A DNA stretch of 34,691 bases, taken from contig NZ_JANUCS010000019.1 in the NCBI RefSeq assembly GCF_024808815.1, positions 1 through 34,691 of the forward strand. Reading direction: 5' to 3'. Numbering within the stretch: position 1 is the stretch's first letter; the number at the start of each line of letters is the position of its first letter. A program made the translations under genes and the position numbers. The notes beneath the pieces were generated by a model, which saw nothing but the letters and a program-made list of their open reading frames with translations, was not told the origin of the DNA and did not search any database. Positions 4,693 through 23,511 of the stretch are shown here, one piece after another. The DNA comes from Methanosalsum natronophilum (GTDB lineage Archaea > Halobacteriota > Methanosarcinia > Methanosarcinales > Methanosarcinaceae).

Positions 4693-5580
4693 ATGCAAAA
4701 AGATGATCATAAAAGGCACAATATTGATTTAGACTTCTTTAGGCAGCTGGACCGTTTTTCTTTTATGGTAAAGAAGAAAGTATCAACAGCTTATGCAGGA
4801 AGTAGACGATCAATACAGAGTGGCCGGGGCCTTGAAACTATAGGATACAGGCAATATTATCCAGGTGATGAGTTTAAGTCCATTGACTGGAACGTTTATG
4901 CAAGACTTGAAAAATATTATATCAGAAAGTTTGAAGAAGAAAAGTCCTTGACAACTCATATTTTGCTTGACACTAGTAAAAGTATGGATTATAGAAGTAA
5001 TACTATAAGCAAGTTTGAATATGGTGCTATGTTAGCTACAGCGTTTGCCTATCTTGTGACAAAAGATAATGATAAGTTTGCTATTTCTCCATTCTCTGAA
5101 GACATAATCACAAGAAAACCTAACAGAGGCCAAAAATACCTTTTCAATAATATAGATTTACTTACTAAAATAGAACTTGCAGGTAAGACAGATATAGAAA
5201 AAAGTGTAGCGAGCTATGAAAAAGCAATTAAATCTCGTTCAGTAGTAATAATTATATCTGATTTTTTAACTGATTATAAGGAAATAGAGTCTGCAGTTTT
5301 TAGATTATCTAAACATGATCTTATATTAGTACAAGTTTTGGATAAAGAGGAAGCTGAACTCAGTTTTCAAGGAAATATAAAACTAGAAGATGCAGAAACT
5401 GGTGATGAGCTGAATACATATATCAGCGAAAGTTTCAAAGAAGAATATCAAGATATGCTTAGTGAACATGTGAATAAGATCAAAGGGATATGTCATCGTT
5501 TTGGTGCAGATTTCTACTCATTTACTTCAGATACTCCAGTTTTTGACTCGTTCTTCTACGCTATTAGCAGGAGGAAATAA
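4693..5580 (+). CDS. DUF58 domain protein
   Basis: DUF58 proteins accompany MoxR ATPases and carry a vWA-like fold. Seen: the DUF58 core GRGLETIGYRQYYPGDEF around residues 45-61, continuing SIDWNVYAR, and then a MIDAS-type metal site DTSKS at 93-97, as in vWA domains. Length (295 aa) is typical and there is no signal peptide or membrane segment, so it is probably cytoplasmic, at the membrane face with MoxR. Its stop codon overlaps the ATG of the next gene by one base (TAATG), with AGGAGG just before, so the two are translationally coupled. Confidence 0.93.
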   Translation: MQKDDHKRHNIDLDFFRQLDRFSFMVKKKVSTAYAGSRRSIQSGRGLETIGYRQYYPGDEFKSIDWNVYARLEKYYIRKFEEEKSLTTHILLDTSKSMDYRSNTISKFEYGAMLATAFAYLVTKDNDKFAISPFSEDIITRKPNRGQKYLFNNIDLLTKIELAGKTDIEKSVASYEKAIKSRSVVIIISDFLTDYKEIESAVFRLSKHDLILVQVLDKEEAELSFQGNIKLEDAETGDELNTYISESFKEEYQDMLSEHVNKIKGICHRFGADFYSFTSDTPVFDSFFYAISRRK

Positions 5581-18171: not shown

Positions 18172-19515
18172 TTATTCTGCCATGGGCTGAAGTTTTCCGG
18201 TTAGTTTTTCAACCTGTTCTACAGCTGTGCCAATGTACATATCTGGTGTGACAAGTCTTGCAACTTCTTTTTCGGATAAATGCAATGAAACTGTTTTATT
18301 TTCCATGAGTGTTTGCTTTAAGTGAAGTCCAGATTCGTGTGATTTCATTGCACAACTTCTAACAATCTCATGAGCCTCCTGTCTACCTACTCCTTTCTTA
18401 GCAAGTTCTATCATGACAGCTTCACCCATGTTTAAACCATTAGTAAATGTTAAATTTCTTCTTATATTGTTAGGATAGAATCTTAATCCCTCTAATACCT
18501 CAATTCCAAGTTTTATTATATGATCTGTAAGAATACATGTTTCTGGAAAAATAATGCGTTCACAAGATGAATTTGTAAGATCACGTTCATCCCATAATGT
18601 ATTATTTAGAAGTTGGGGTTCCACCATCGATCGCACAATTCTTGCAAGTCCACCAATTTGCTCTGATTTTATAGGGTTCCTTTTATGTGGCATTGTTGAT
18701 GAACCAACTTGTTTTTTGCCAAAGCTTTCTTCAACCTCTGCTATTTCGCTTCTTTGAAGTGTTCTAATAGCTATACCAATTTTATCTAATGTTGTTACTG
18801 TGTTTGCCATCCACATTACAAGTTCTGCATGCCTATCTCGCTGAACAATTTGGTTAGAAACATCAACTGAGTTAATTCCCAGGTTTTTCATAGTTAACTC
18901 TTGGATTTGCATACCCTTTTTCCCAAAGGCTGCTTGAGTTCCTACAGCACCTGACATTTGGCCTACAAAAATACGTGGTTTCATTTGATTTAGGCGTTCA
19001 AGATGTCGAGAGATTTCTGACGCCCATATTGCAAACTTTAAGCCATAAGTCGTGGGTACACCTATTTGTCCATGTGTACGTCCAGCACAAACGGTATACT
19101 TGTGATCAGACGACTGTTTTAACAATACTTTAAGTAAGTTTTTCAGTTTTTTTTCCATTATTAAGATAGCATCCTTTAACTGAAGAGCAGTTGCTGTATC
19201 TAAAATGTCATTGGATGTGGCTCCAAAATGTACCCATTTTCCCGAATCTTCTGGACATTTTTCTGAAATAGCTAAAACTACAGCCATCATATCATGATGT
19301 ATTTCATCTTCTATTTCTTTGACACGTTTAAGTTCTATTTTTTTAATAGATTCAGCAATGTTTTTTGCAGCATCTTCTGGAATAAGACCCACTTCAGCTT
19401 CTGCTTTTGCTAGTGCTGATTCCACCCTAAGGAGTTTTTCGAGTCTATTTTCTTCTTCCCATACATGCTTCATTTCAGAAGTTCCATATCTATATTCTAT
19501 CGGATGAATTGCCAT
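18172..19515 (-). CDS. purB: Adenylosuccinate lyase
   Basis: Catalyses two steps of purine synthesis: SAICAR to AICAR plus fumarate, and adenylosuccinate to AMP plus fumarate. The family signature GSSTMPHKRNPIKSEQ is at 271-286, with the catalytic Ser in the flexible loop, and the catalytic His region GRTHGQ at 145-150. HFGATSND near 97-104 is also conserved. Length (447 aa) is normal. The ATG at 19515 follows GAGGAGA on the - strand. Monocistronic by context: it faces uvrA and is separated from mtmB by 177 bases. Confidence 0.96.
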   Translation of the reverse strand: MAIHPIEYRYGTSEMKHVWEEENRLEKLLRVESALAKAEAEVGLIPEDAAKNIAESIKKIELKRVKEIEDEIHHDMMAVVLAISEKCPEDSGKWVHFGATSNDILDTATALQLKDAILIMEKKLKNLLKVLLKQSSDHKYTVCAGRTHGQIGVPTTYGLKFAIWASEISRHLERLNQMKPRIFVGQMSGAVGTQAAFGKKGMQIQELTMKNLGINSVDVSNQIVQRDRHAELVMWMANTVTTLDKIGIAIRTLQRSEIAEVEESFGKKQVGSSTMPHKRNPIKSEQIGGLARIVRSMVEPQLLNNTLWDERDLTNSSCERIIFPETCILTDHIIKLGIEVLEGLRFYPNNIRRNLTFTNGLNMGEAVMIELAKKGVGRQEAHEIVRSCAMKSHESGLHLKQTLMENKTVSLHLSEKEVARLVTPDMYIGTAVEQVEKLTGKLQPMAE

Positions 19516-19692: not shown

Positions 19693-21069
19693 TCAATATA
19701 CTAATCCAAGTTCTTCTAGTTTCTTCTTTGCACCGTCGTATACTTTCACGTATTCGTCGGTTGGTGTGACTGTCTTTGTGTCGTAGCATTCCTGGAACGT
19801 CTTACCAGCAGGAGCCTTATCGTAATTCTTCTCATACATTCCGACAAGCTGGTCAAGTATCTTATTGACCTCAGAGATCTCCATACCTGCAGCAGCGCGA
19901 GCAGTTTCTCCCATCATTCTTGCTTCCATACCAGTGGTCTTGTTCTCAGCAACACCCTTTGCAGCAGCTACACCTGAGAGAATCTCTCGACCAGATGCAG
20001 TATCTGTGATAGATTGTGCAGCAGTTTCAAGCAGACACATTTCAGTCGCAGGACCGGCACATGGATAGTACTGGTTACCTTTGATCATGTCAGTGTTCTG
20101 GCTAGTAGCCGCTGCTGTCCATCCAGCGATTGCAAGTGTTTCCCTTGTGTTAGTGGACCCCCACCTAATGTGGACAGGACCGTCAAGGTGCCAGCTTGCA
20201 TTGCTCATAACAAATGCGTTAATGTGAGTTGCGACGTCAACGATTGCAGTTTCTTCAATACCACCAGCATATCCACCAAAGATTGGCATCTGTTCATCCA
20301 TGATAATATCGCTGTTTGCATTATAGTGTGCAATTACTGCAATGGCGTCAAGGTCGATCTTAAGTTCGTTCAATTGTGATACTTCGTGACTGTCGCTTGT
20401 TTTCATGCCCCCAATTGTATCTGCACTGATGTTACCTTGTGCAGTCAATGAGGTCTCAGGTCCCTATATACCCATGCAAGGTCTACCAGCAAGCGCACAT
20501 GCTTGTTTGATAAGTCTTGTTTCTGTCTTTGCAGCAAGGATCTCATATGGACTGCCAGGTACTGCAGATTTACCCATAATGGACTTGAGTACACCGTTAA
20601 CTATAGTGTCACATTCCTTTTCCATAGCATAGCTCATGTGGATTGGAATGAACATATCTTCAGAGACTGGAGCACCTGTTGGTCCACCTTGAACGTGTGG
20701 TTTCCTTTTATCTCCAATCTTTCTCTTTCTGACATATGTCCTGTCACGTGCATCACCAAGTGAGAATTCTTTCTGGACATTATTGATAGCGTCCCATATC
20801 TCGTCTTCAGTGTATTTGACGACACGATGTGTATCAGTACAGTATATTCCACACTCTAACAACATCTCGAAACCAGCTTTGAACAGGTTGTCCACCATGT
20901 CCATATCAGTTGGTACGATCTCATTACCAAAATCGAGTTTGTATTTCTGCTTGAGTTCAGCACTCTTCATTGGTATTGTCATGAGGTCCCAGTCATCCTG
21001 GGATATTTTCTCACCTTTCTTTGCACGGTCATAGAAGTCGTAACATGTGAACGATTTAGTGAATGTCAT
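19693..21069 (-). CDS. mtmB: Monomethylamine:corrinoid methyltransferase, with in-frame amber pyrrolysine codon
   Basis: Transfers the methyl group of monomethylamine to the corrinoid protein MtmC, the first step of methanogenesis from methylamine. The sequence appears as two open frames, 201 codons (21069-20467) and the rest, split by TAG at 20464-20466. Read through, the protein is exactly 458 residues, the known MtmB length, and the amber codon is residue 202, the known pyrrolysine site: CMGI-Pyl-GPETSLTAQGN. N-terminal KYTEDEIWDAINNVQKEF and the rest agree with MtmB of Methanosarcina throughout. A strong AAAGGAGG lies 10 bases before the ATG. It follows mtmC by 35 bases. This is not a frameshift or pseudogene. 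Insertion needs pylT/pylS, which are not in the window. Confidence 0.97.
20464..20466 (-). other. Pyrrolysine (UAG) codon 202 of mtmB
   Basis: In-frame TAG on the - strand in the context GGT ATA TAG GGA CCT. It coincides with the pyrrolysine position known for MtmB, and the flanking protein sequence continues in the same frame on both sides. Confidence 0.96.
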
Positions 21070-21104: not shown

Positions 21105-21758
21105 TTATTTCATTAGCTCAGTTGCTGTTCGTGCAGCTTCAGCTGCATTCTCTGCAGTTGCATCAGCACCGATCTCTTCGATCCAGTCCTGTGATACTGG
21201 TGCACCACCAAACATCACTTTAACCTTATCTCTGAGTCCTTCTTCCTGGAGCATCTCGATAGTGTCTTTCTGGCTGAGCATTGATGTTGTCATGAGTGCA
21301 GATCCTACAAGAATGACCTTCTTTCCTTTATGTTTAGCAACCTCTTCAATGAGGTCTTCATTTGGTACGTCCACACCAAGGTCAAGTATCTCGAAACCGT
21401 TAGCACCTAGCATAGTTGAGACTAACCTGTGTCCAATATCATGTATATCTCCTTCCTGGACATACGTTATTGCCAACCCTACACCTTCTTCGCCTTCCAT
21501 CTCTTCTTCAAGCTTTGGTGTCAATATTTCCATTGCAGCATCCATTGCCTTTGAAGACATCATGATTTGAGGTAAATAGACCTCTGCTGCCTCGAACTTA
21601 TCTCCAATAATTTTCATTCCGACAGCTAGTCCAGAATCAATTGCTTCTACAGGTGATACACCTGCATCCAATGCTTCTTGTGCACCTTGCTTTGCACCTT
21701 CAATATCCTGGTTTACAATTGCTTCTTTTAGCTTATCTAGAATTTCTTGATTTGCCAT
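21105..21758 (-). CDS. mtmC: Monomethylamine corrinoid protein
   Basis: Carries the cobalamin cofactor that accepts the methyl group from MtmB and passes it to MtbA. The 217 residues have the usual two-domain layout: helical cap (about 1-90) and Rossmann-type B12 domain with the cobalt-ligating His106 in GDIHDIG, followed by SALMTTS near 155 and GGAPVSQDWI near 185. It is first in the mtmCB operon, as is normal. AAGGTGA precedes the ATG. A TATA box ATTTATATAT lies 89 bases upstream of the ATG, predicting a leader of roughly 60 bases. Cofactor reduction by RamA is expected, but its gene is not here. Confidence 0.95.
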   Translation of the reverse strand: MANQEILDKLKEAIVNQDIEGAKQGAQEALDAGVSPVEAIDSGLAVGMKIIGDKFEAAEVYLPQIMMSSKAMDAAMEILTPKLEEEMEGEEGVGLAITYVQEGDIHDIGHRLVSTMLGANGFEILDLGVDVPNEDLIEEVAKHKGKKVILVGSALMTTSMLSQKDTIEMLQEEGLRDKVKVMFGGAPVSQDWIEEIGADATAENAAEAARTATELMK

Positions 21759-21803
21759 TTTGTCACCTTTCTATTTTGTTTTTTATTATTATAGTTCTAA
21801 AAA

Positions 21804-21826
21804 TGTAGCTTTTAACATCTACTACA
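21804..21826 (-). promoter_or_regulatory. Weak leader stem in the mtmC 5' UTR
   Basis: TGTAG and CTACA (21804-21808 and 21822-21826) can pair as a 5-bp stem in the predicted leader. Weak alone, but the mtbC leader has a stronger hairpin in a comparable position. Confidence 0.25.
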
Positions 21827-21846
21827 AAATTTAATGAGAAAGTATG

Positions 21847-21856
21847 ATATATAAAT
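21847..21856 (-). promoter_or_regulatory. TATA box of mtmCB
   Basis: ATTTATATAT on the - strand, ending 89 bases before the mtmC ATG. The same ten bases occur at the same distance before mtbC. Archaeal TATA boxes sit about 25 bases before the transcript start, so the leader would be about 60-65 bases. Confidence 0.65.
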
Positions 21857-21864
21857 ATTATGAC

Positions 21865-21907
21865 TTAACTTTGTTTTCGAACTAAACTTTTTATACTTTA
21901 ACTTTGT
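21865..21907. repeat. Direct repeat pair between mtmC and the HTH gene
   Basis: TTAACTTTGT occurs at 21865-21874 and again at 21898-21907, 33 bases apart start to start, which is about three helical turns. The second copy overlaps the predicted start site of the HTH gene, and the first is just upstream of the mtmC TATA box. This is a good arrangement for a regulator acting on both genes; the regulator is not known. Confidence 0.45.
21889..21896 (+). promoter_or_regulatory. TATA-like box of the HTH gene
   Basis: TTTTATAC-type sequence about 25 bases before the ATG at 21918. With no ribosome site in between, the transcript would be leaderless or nearly so. Confidence 0.45.
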
Positions 21908-21917
21908 CAGAATAATT

Positions 21918-22343
21918 ATGCCAAAAAGCGAGATTTACAATGTTAAGCATAAAATGAGTCTTAATGATTTAGACAAGAGAATAAAGTATCTAGAAAGAAT
22001 GGTTAAAGTGCTTAACAGATTAAAATTCATAAGGTATCGATATAAGGGGCTTTCTGTAGAGAAAGCTGCAGCAAAAGTCCAAGTAACAAAGTCTGTTGGA
22101 TACATTTGGCAAAAAAGGTGGAATCGAGATGGATATGTTGGATTAGTGCCTAAGTATAAGGGAGGAAGAGCTCCTAAATTAACAATTGATCAAAAAAGAG
22201 AAATACAGGAAATTATACAGAAAAATGAGCATTTTAGCACCCGTACAATTAAAACTATAATTGAAAACAAGTTCGGAATAACTTATTCATTAAAGCAGGT
22301 TAGGTTGATTATAAAAGAATTAAAAAATGGGCATATAATCTGA
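21918..22343 (+). CDS. Stand-alone IS630-type helix-turn-helix protein
   Basis: A 141-residue, Lys/Arg-rich protein. Residues about 35-75 form a helix-turn-helix (YKGLSVEKAAAKVQVTKSVG, then IWQKRW), followed by the linker GGRAPKLT typical of the front part of IS630-family transposases. A second winged helix (about 105-138, FSTRTIKTIIENKFGITYS) completes the paired DNA-binding module. The DDE catalytic domain is absent: the frame closes at TGA and nothing transposase-like follows in the 55 bases before ccmF. No terminal inverted repeats are visible. It is divergent from mtmC with a shared 159-base control region. It may be a relic or a transposase DNA-binding domain put to use as a regulator. 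Function not established. Confidence 0.7.
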   Translation: MPKSEIYNVKHKMSLNDLDKRIKYLERMVKVLNRLKFIRYRYKGLSVEKAAAKVQVTKSVGYIWQKRWNRDGYVGLVPKYKGGRAPKLTIDQKREIQEIIQKNEHFSTRTIKTIIENKFGITYSLKQVRLIIKELKNGHII

Positions 22344-22398
22344 CCTAGTTATTAGCAGTATATTTAATATCCTTAAATAATCCTATAAGTATAATTTA

Positions 22399-23475
22399 TT
22401 ATGTTCTTTTTTTATCTATGACGTATTTGTATAACATACCCAAAATACTTGCAATTATAAGACCAAATATAAATAAACCCATAATTGCACCATCAAAACT
22501 GAAATCTTGCCAAGCATGCACGGATGCCCAAAGACCACTACGTGTTACAAATGTTGCAAAAACAACAAATACAAAAGAAAAAATCGCTAGTATTGGGACC
22601 AATGTTTGGAATTCTTCATGTTTTAATCGATACTGTGCATGCAAATAAGCAGTTGCAGTAAGCCAAGGAATCAGGGAAGCAGTCTCAACTGGATCCCATG
22701 TCCAATACCATGCACCCCAGCCAAGTACTTCATACGCCCAGAATCCACCGAGTGCAATTCCAATTGTCAAAAAAATCCATGCTATACGCATCCAAAAATT
22801 ACCAATATCAACCCATTTATCATCATTTATAAATAAAGCAGAAAGTCCTAAAACAAATGGGAAAGTAAAGGCAGCATAACCTACAAACAAAAGTGGTGGA
22901 TGTGCTGCCATCCATGGATTTCTTAGTAAGGGGTTCATACCTTGACCATAAGGTACATCAAAAGAGTAAACAAAAGGATTCCAAGTAGTTAGCTCTACAA
23001 TCCCACCTGGCAATAAATGATACATAGAAAATGGATTTTTTATAACTAAAAACAGTAAAAATACAGTTCCAATCAAAAGTAAAATCGTTCTTGACAAATA
23101 AATTAGTTTTTTGTTTTCAAAAGTATTTACATTTGGAGATATTCTAAAAATAATACACATTACAAATATTAACCAAACCCATAAGAGTAAAGAACCTTCT
23201 TGACCAGCCCAAAGAGCAGAAATACGGTAGTACCATTCAAGGTTCATACTAGAATGATGGAACACATAACTATAACTTGCATTTACTACAAATAAATAGT
23301 ATGTTAAAAGTATAACACAAAAAGTCAAAATGATAGTACATAGAGTTTCCATTAAATAGGAACGTTTTTTCACGCTTAGGTCTGGATTCAAGTAAAAAGA
23401 AGTCGAATAGAGAAATGCACCAAATCCTGCAATAAATGCTAGCCATATTGCAATCATACCAAAGTTAACATCCAT
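22399..23475 (-). CDS. ccmF: CcmF N-terminal half (haem-handling membrane protein)
   Basis: Cytochrome c maturation protein of the CcmF/CcsA family, which handles haem on its way to apocytochrome c outside the membrane. About ten membrane segments. The WWD haem-binding motif is clear: GWGAWYWTWDPVETASLIPW, about two thirds along. Conserved His residues occur in AAHPPLLFVGY before it and SVHAWQDF after it. At about 358 residues it covers only the front half of a bacterial CcmF of about 650. The ATG at 23475 with GGCGAGG upstream is chosen over the TTG at 23499. It lies 36 bases downstream of the other half of the protein, so the halves are transcribed in reversed order. Other ccm genes are not in the window. 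Confidence 0.88.
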   Translation of the reverse strand: MDVNFGMIAIWLAFIAGFGAFLYSTSFYLNPDLSVKKRSYLMETLCTIILTFCVILLTYYLFVVNASYSYVFHHSSMNLEWYYRISALWAGQEGSLLLWVWLIFVMCIIFRISPNVNTFENKKLIYLSRTILLLIGTVFLLFLVIKNPFSMYHLLPGGIVELTTWNPFVYSFDVPYGQGMNPLLRNPWMAAHPPLLFVGYAAFTFPFVLGLSALFINDDKWVDIGNFWMRIAWIFLTIGIALGGFWAYEVLGWGAWYWTWDPVETASLIPWLTATAYLHAQYRLKHEEFQTLVPILAIFSFVFVVFATFVTRSGLWASVHAWQDFSFDGAIMGLFIFGLIIASILGMLYKYVIDKKRT

Positions 23476-23511
23476 AGTAAACTGAACCTCGCCTATCAAT
23501 TATTTATTAAT

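Follow-up and report, generated by a model that had tools for sequence, protein, structure and literature searches.

An IS630-derived DNA-binding protein encoded beside mtmCB in Methanosalsum and its relatives is a candidate local regulator

The 34,691-nucleotide stretch of Methanosalsum natronophilum DNA that was analyzed (the window) carries the monomethylamine genes mtmC and mtmB and, on the opposite strand, a gene for a solo IS630 OrfA-like protein. As the first-pass annotation had described, the two divergent units, OrfA on the plus strand and mtmC on the minus strand, have a 159-bp region in common. The features of the locus are the following.

18172-19515, minus strand: purB; mtmCB lies between purB and a ccmF-like gene
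19693-21069, minus strand: mtmB, monomethylamine methyltransferase, with a single in-frame TAG read as pyrrolysine
21105-21758, minus strand: mtmC, monomethylamine corrinoid protein, divergent from the solo OrfA gene in 22 of 22 loci
21848-21855, minus strand: mtmC TATA box, TTTATATA, 24 to 25 bp from the left site in this genus
21865-21874, plus strand: first copy of the repeat TTAACTTTGT from the first-pass annotation, not conserved
21880-21899, plus strand: fossil IS630 left-end inner site (the left site), AACTAAACTTTTTATACTTT, covering the BRE/TATA of the OrfA gene itself; proposed operator
21890-21895, plus strand: TATA box (TTTATA) of the solo OrfA gene, within the left site and conserved in the alignment
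21898-21907, plus strand: second copy of TTAACTTTGT, not conserved
21918-22343, plus strand: solo IS630 OrfA-like protein (paired-type, two-HTH) of 141 amino acids, lacking the DDE domain and the insertion-sequence linker
22386-22405, minus strand: fossil IS630 right-end inner site (the right site), AACATAATAAATTATACTTA, inverted relative to the left site and following the gene
22399-23499, minus strand: ccmF-like gene, the other neighbor of the solo OrfA gene in this genus only

No known RNA family was found within positions 21600 to 22500. The mtmC leaders of three Methanococcoides loci (L007, L014, and L017) have a common CAGGACAAACGACC motif in a foldable stem, with modest fold z-scores of -0.7 to -2.0; the mtmC leader in the window is unstructured.

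The 141-residue protein (pI 10.3) aligns with the IS630 transposase model over the N-terminal 109 of its 299 positions (E 3e-18, below the model's cut-off), and both Pfam HTH_23 and HTH_32 are matched within it. Its closest known counterparts, two-frame elements of the IS630 (IS630-Tc1-mariner) group in Methanosarcinales and Thermoplasmata (e.g., L042, L046, and L061), have an OrfA two-HTH region that is 41 to 47% identical to it over its whole length. The reading frame ends at the exact point where the OrfA of live elements continues into the linker MHHAKPYPHDYRRP. A tblastn search of the window, of the other loci linked to mtmC, and of their flanks found no DDE stretch, the best E value being 1.8; true IS loci gave 1e-40 to 1e-124. 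The two helix-turn-helix parts of the transposase have been kept and the catalytic domain is gone, as had been proposed from the sequence. The solo gene retains the OrfA-type DNA-binding region of functional IS630, and three other traits of such elements are missing at the window locus: the DDE domain, intact terminal inverted repeats tipped with TATAG, and multiple copies or variable position.

The protein consists entirely of DNA-binding domain, with no evident effector or sensor domain, and no solved structure is significantly related to it by sequence. In its AlphaFold model (pTM 0.44), the first helix is long and two HTH units are present, with uncertain domain orientation; the top five fold matches are the DNA-binding domains of Pax5, Pax6, Tc3, SETMAR, and Mos1, all of them weak (E 0.018 to 0.1). 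By these weak matches, the solo OrfA may resemble the eukaryotic Pax paired-domain factors and SETMAR in a paired-type bipartite fold that is shared with Tc1/mariner transposases. In Pax factors and SETMAR, a transposase domain has been turned into a host factor; unlike them, the archaeal protein has an independent origin, has no homeodomain or other partner domain, and still lies beside its own ancestral ends.

Relatives sought in 112 genomes of the family fall into two cleanly separated groups. Members of the first are 50 to 59% identical to the window protein and occur as one copy per genome at the same position: in all 21 other genomes of this group (22 of 22 with the window), the solo OrfA gene is divergent from mtmC, at an intergenic distance of 151 to 173 bp. 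These 21 genomes comprise all 11 of g7, all 8 of g10, one of g3, and G073 from the genus of the window, such that the gene is present in four genera, namely in every Methanococcoides and Methanohalophilus genome searched (g7 and g10), in Methanosalsum, and in one further genus. The second group consists of IS630 OrfAs that are at most 45% identical, are often multicopy, and are followed by a DDE frame. The mtmC-linked proteins form one branch relative to the mobile OrfAs (support 93/93), and pairwise dN/dS values of the linked orthologs, counted only for pairs with unsaturated dS, range from 0.009 to 0.14, indicating purifying selection. The first-pass annotation had suggested looking for the gene beside mtmC in relatives, and all 21 other orthologs proved to lie there; homologs that were always followed by a DDE domain, or that lay at random positions, would have spoken against recruitment, and the outcome on both counts was in its favor. 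The gene-bearing genomes G016 to G026 and G031 to G038 rarely hold other related IS630 copies, as opposed to up to 17 to 18 in some genomes without the gene, a contrast that is confounded by phylogeny.

G072 (72% complete), a third genome from the genus, provides a case of natural loss. Here purB and ccmF are in place and mtmCB is absent between them; no mtmCB was found elsewhere in this 72%-complete assembly at E 1e-50. The OrfA gene of G072 is reduced to a fragment of 74 codons (L126, 942-1166) lacking the start region and the second HTH. The gene was not kept without mtmCB in this case, a single and incomplete genome.

Contrary to the first-pass annotation, which saw no insertion-sequence ends, the gene is flanked by a degenerate left end at 21880-21899 and an inverted right end at 22386-22405. 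The termini of live elements, defined by comparing element copies, show a left end of TATAGTTAnTAACCAAACTTTTATTACTTA followed by orfA, with the inner site 38 to 42 nt before the ATG; the left site in the window lies 38 nt from the ATG, matching this offset. A matrix built from eleven live left ends, used to scan the window on both strands, gave its top score at positions 21880-21899 (20.2 bits, versus 11.6 for the next). The best intergenic matrix position falls 38 to 40 nt before the ATG in 21 of the 22 linked loci, and in 18 of those 21, at most 2 of 200 shuffles score as well; L018 has a weak left site, and those of L021 to L023 are not significant by shuffling. Across genera, the columns of the left site are 85% identical, versus 58% on one flank and 61% on the other. 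The closest live end (L042) reads AACTAAACTTTTTATACTTA, as compared with AACTAAACTTTTTATACTTT in the window.

At the other side of the gene, the low-coordinate end of the right site lies 45 bp past the first base of the stop codon. A search of the 2.03-Mb genome with the 19-base pattern AACNNAANNNTTTATACTT, allowing up to one mismatch, returned two matches only, the left site and, at 22387-22405, the inverted right site; in G073, the same pair is among five matches. In the other genera, an inverted, weaker right copy occupies a constant place at the stop codon (stop+2) in most loci, with individually weak sites in L006-type Methanohalophilus and some Methanococcoides. The inner parts of both ends are kept in the window, and the terminal TATAG tips are gone. 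By its order of left site, orfA, and right site, the window locus is an internally deleted IS630. It resembles live elements in the left-end inner site and its distance from the ATG, and is unlike them in lacking the DDE frame, the C-terminal linker, and the tips, and in being single copy and syntenic.

The 10-base direct repeat that had been singled out initially is real, its two copies lying 33 bp apart and occurring nowhere else in the window, but it is statistically weak, since dinucleotide shuffling of the region, which has 20% G+C, yields a direct repeat of at least 10 bases in 9.5% of cases, and it is absent from all 21 other orthologous loci. Being both unconserved and weak by shuffling, the repeat was rejected as the operator.

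The 22 syntenic orthologs, their single clade and low dN/dS, the loss of the DDE domain and tips, and the decay of the gene together with mtmCB strongly support the view that the DNA-binding domain of a transposase was recruited beside mtmCB. We consider it probable that this tamed domain is autoregulated through the fossil site and modulates mtmCB. In the lineage ancestral to Methanococcoides, Methanohalophilus, and Methanosalsum, an IS630 would have inserted just 5' of the mtmC promoter, and its catalytic frame and terminal tips would then have been lost through internal deletion and mutation. The DNA-binding OrfA would have been retained under selection, together with the inner transposase-binding site at each end, leaving a protein that may now act as a local regulator.

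Autoregulation through the left site is well supported by inference, since the conserved site is the inner sequence of an IS left end and covers the BRE/TATA of the gene. The first-pass annotation had also proposed an autoregulated gene, placing control at the 10-base repeat and not at this site. With the left site lying over the TATA box of the gene, binding should compete with TBP/TFB, so that the protein would repress its own promoter, as do OrfA-type proteins of live insertion sequences. In IS1, InsA (OrfA) binds IRL and IRR and represses a promoter that overlaps IRL (PMC12428005). The solo OrfA is likewise the DNA-binding part of a transposase without the catalytic domain, with one site over its own left-end promoter and a second in the right end. 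Unlike InsA, which resides within a mobile IS, it belongs to an unrelated sequence family, is immobile, and is tied to a metabolic operon, and its repression is a prediction.

The position and spacing of the left site are the grounds for proposing that mtmC is controlled as well. Bound at this site, which adjoins the mtmC core promoter on its upstream side, the protein would modulate mtmCB, and such a position suits an activator; activation is the probable sign, and repression is also possible. The left site lies 14 to 16 bp from the mtmC TATA box in three genera versus 24 to 25 bp in Methanosalsum, an added distance of about one helical turn. The inverted right site may provide a second anchor. 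Nothing points to the monomethylamine switch that had been suggested: the protein is devoid of a sensor part, making a direct response to monomethylamine unlikely. A wider regulon was likewise rejected, because the site pattern is not enriched elsewhere: in most of the nine genomes compared, its matches (up to one mismatch) are no more numerous than those of its reversed control. A further reading, which we regard as speculative and rather unlikely, is that capture took in the entire element as a feedback circuit already in working order, in which an archaeal counterpart of Pax would use both fossil ends as operators and so adjust its own amount as well as the expression of a pyrrolysine-dependent methyltransferase operon; the ends would perhaps be paired into a small loop, as a transposase pairs ends.

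In genera that lack the solo OrfA gene, different genes lie upstream of mtmC. A winged-HTH protein is encoded divergently from mtmC in G044 (L092), whose genus lacks the solo OrfA, and several g11 genomes (L088, L089, L090, L091, L093, and L094) have in this position a large, sensor-like protein that starts with a membrane segment and has no Pfam match in its first 110 residues. The window's own genome contains a second solo OrfA (L002, 1498-1914; G000:C15) of 138 amino acids and 45% identity, lacking the DDE domain and the TATAG tip, retaining the left-end inner site, and adjoining a gene for a SpoIIM-like membrane protein. Another, separate solo IS630 OrfA (about 138 amino acids) occurs in five Methanosarcina-like g13 genomes (L131, 4986-5402, minus strand; L132, 5035-5451, minus strand; L133, 1218-1634; L134, 676-1092; and L135, about 4985-5341, minus strand), in each case upstream of a gene for a GNAT acetyltransferase. 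No DDE domain lies near it within the stretches examined, and its upstream region keeps the end-like ACAGTTTTTTACGCAAACTTTAATACATA.

The protein could be autoregulated and act on some other target, or have an architectural role, with mtmCB unaffected. The lack of a sensor domain and the occurrence of near-exact sites nowhere in the genome but on either side of the gene are compatible with this, but the constant neighbor is mtmC, ccmF adjoining the gene only in Methanosalsum, and the mtmC-divergent slot of L092 is filled by a winged-HTH protein; we give this explanation a small chance of being correct. It is similarly improbable that the solo OrfA has been kept mainly as a guard that binds the ends of invading IS630 relatives and blocks their transposition, its adjacency to mtmC being incidental. 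OrfA-type proteins are competitive inhibitors of transposition (IS1 InsA acts in trans), and most gene-bearing genomes have no other match, as opposed to up to 17 to 18 copies in several genomes lacking the gene. This difference in copy number is confounded by phylogeny, however, and a guard function leaves unexplained the strict linkage to mtmC, the fixed spacing to the mtmC TATA box, and the decay of the gene upon loss of mtmCB.

Part of the left-site score is generic, since the site includes a TATA box, and the resemblance to IS ends might in principle reflect BRE/TATA similarity alone, with the operator elsewhere, for example at TTAACTTTGT. This is very improbable given that no other position in the window exceeds 11.6 bits, that the match extends to the upstream half (AACYAAAC) and to the spacing from the ATG, that an inverted copy follows the gene, and that no relative has the 10-base repeat. 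A functionless, decaying remnant, for which the loss of tips and DDE domain and the similar orphan in the same genome (L002) might argue, is in practice refuted by purifying selection and by 22 intact syntenic copies forming one clade in four genera.

The methyltransferase operons of Methanosarcina have ArsR-like or Msr/Mre proteins as their known or proposed regulators (PMC3510493, PMC11619418), with MM2441 proposed to act on mtmC2B2 (PMC3510493). The job proposed for the solo OrfA is like theirs, control of a methyltransferase operon, but these proteins are ArsR-like or sensor-type and have no sequence kinship to it. Some RNA-guided transcription regulators of prokaryotes derive from TnpB-type transposon proteins. 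The solo OrfA would be like these in being a transposon protein turned prokaryotic transcription regulator; they differ from it in protein family and in their RNA-guided mechanism. In the open literature that was searched, we found no description of a transposase-derived regulator of mtmC or of mtmCB control in Methanococcoides or Methanohalophilus.

For Methanococcoides and Methanohalophilus, the solo OrfA provides a candidate local regulator of mtmCB with an exact, 20-bp predicted site. The locus would also be an unusually complete case of transposase domestication in a prokaryote, combining a single origin, relatives among live elements, ancestral ends flanking the gene, and a natural loss of mtmCB accompanied by decay of the gene. 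If the solo OrfA upstream of the acetyltransferase gene in g13 is truly a separate capture, such events may represent a repeated route to new archaeal regulators.
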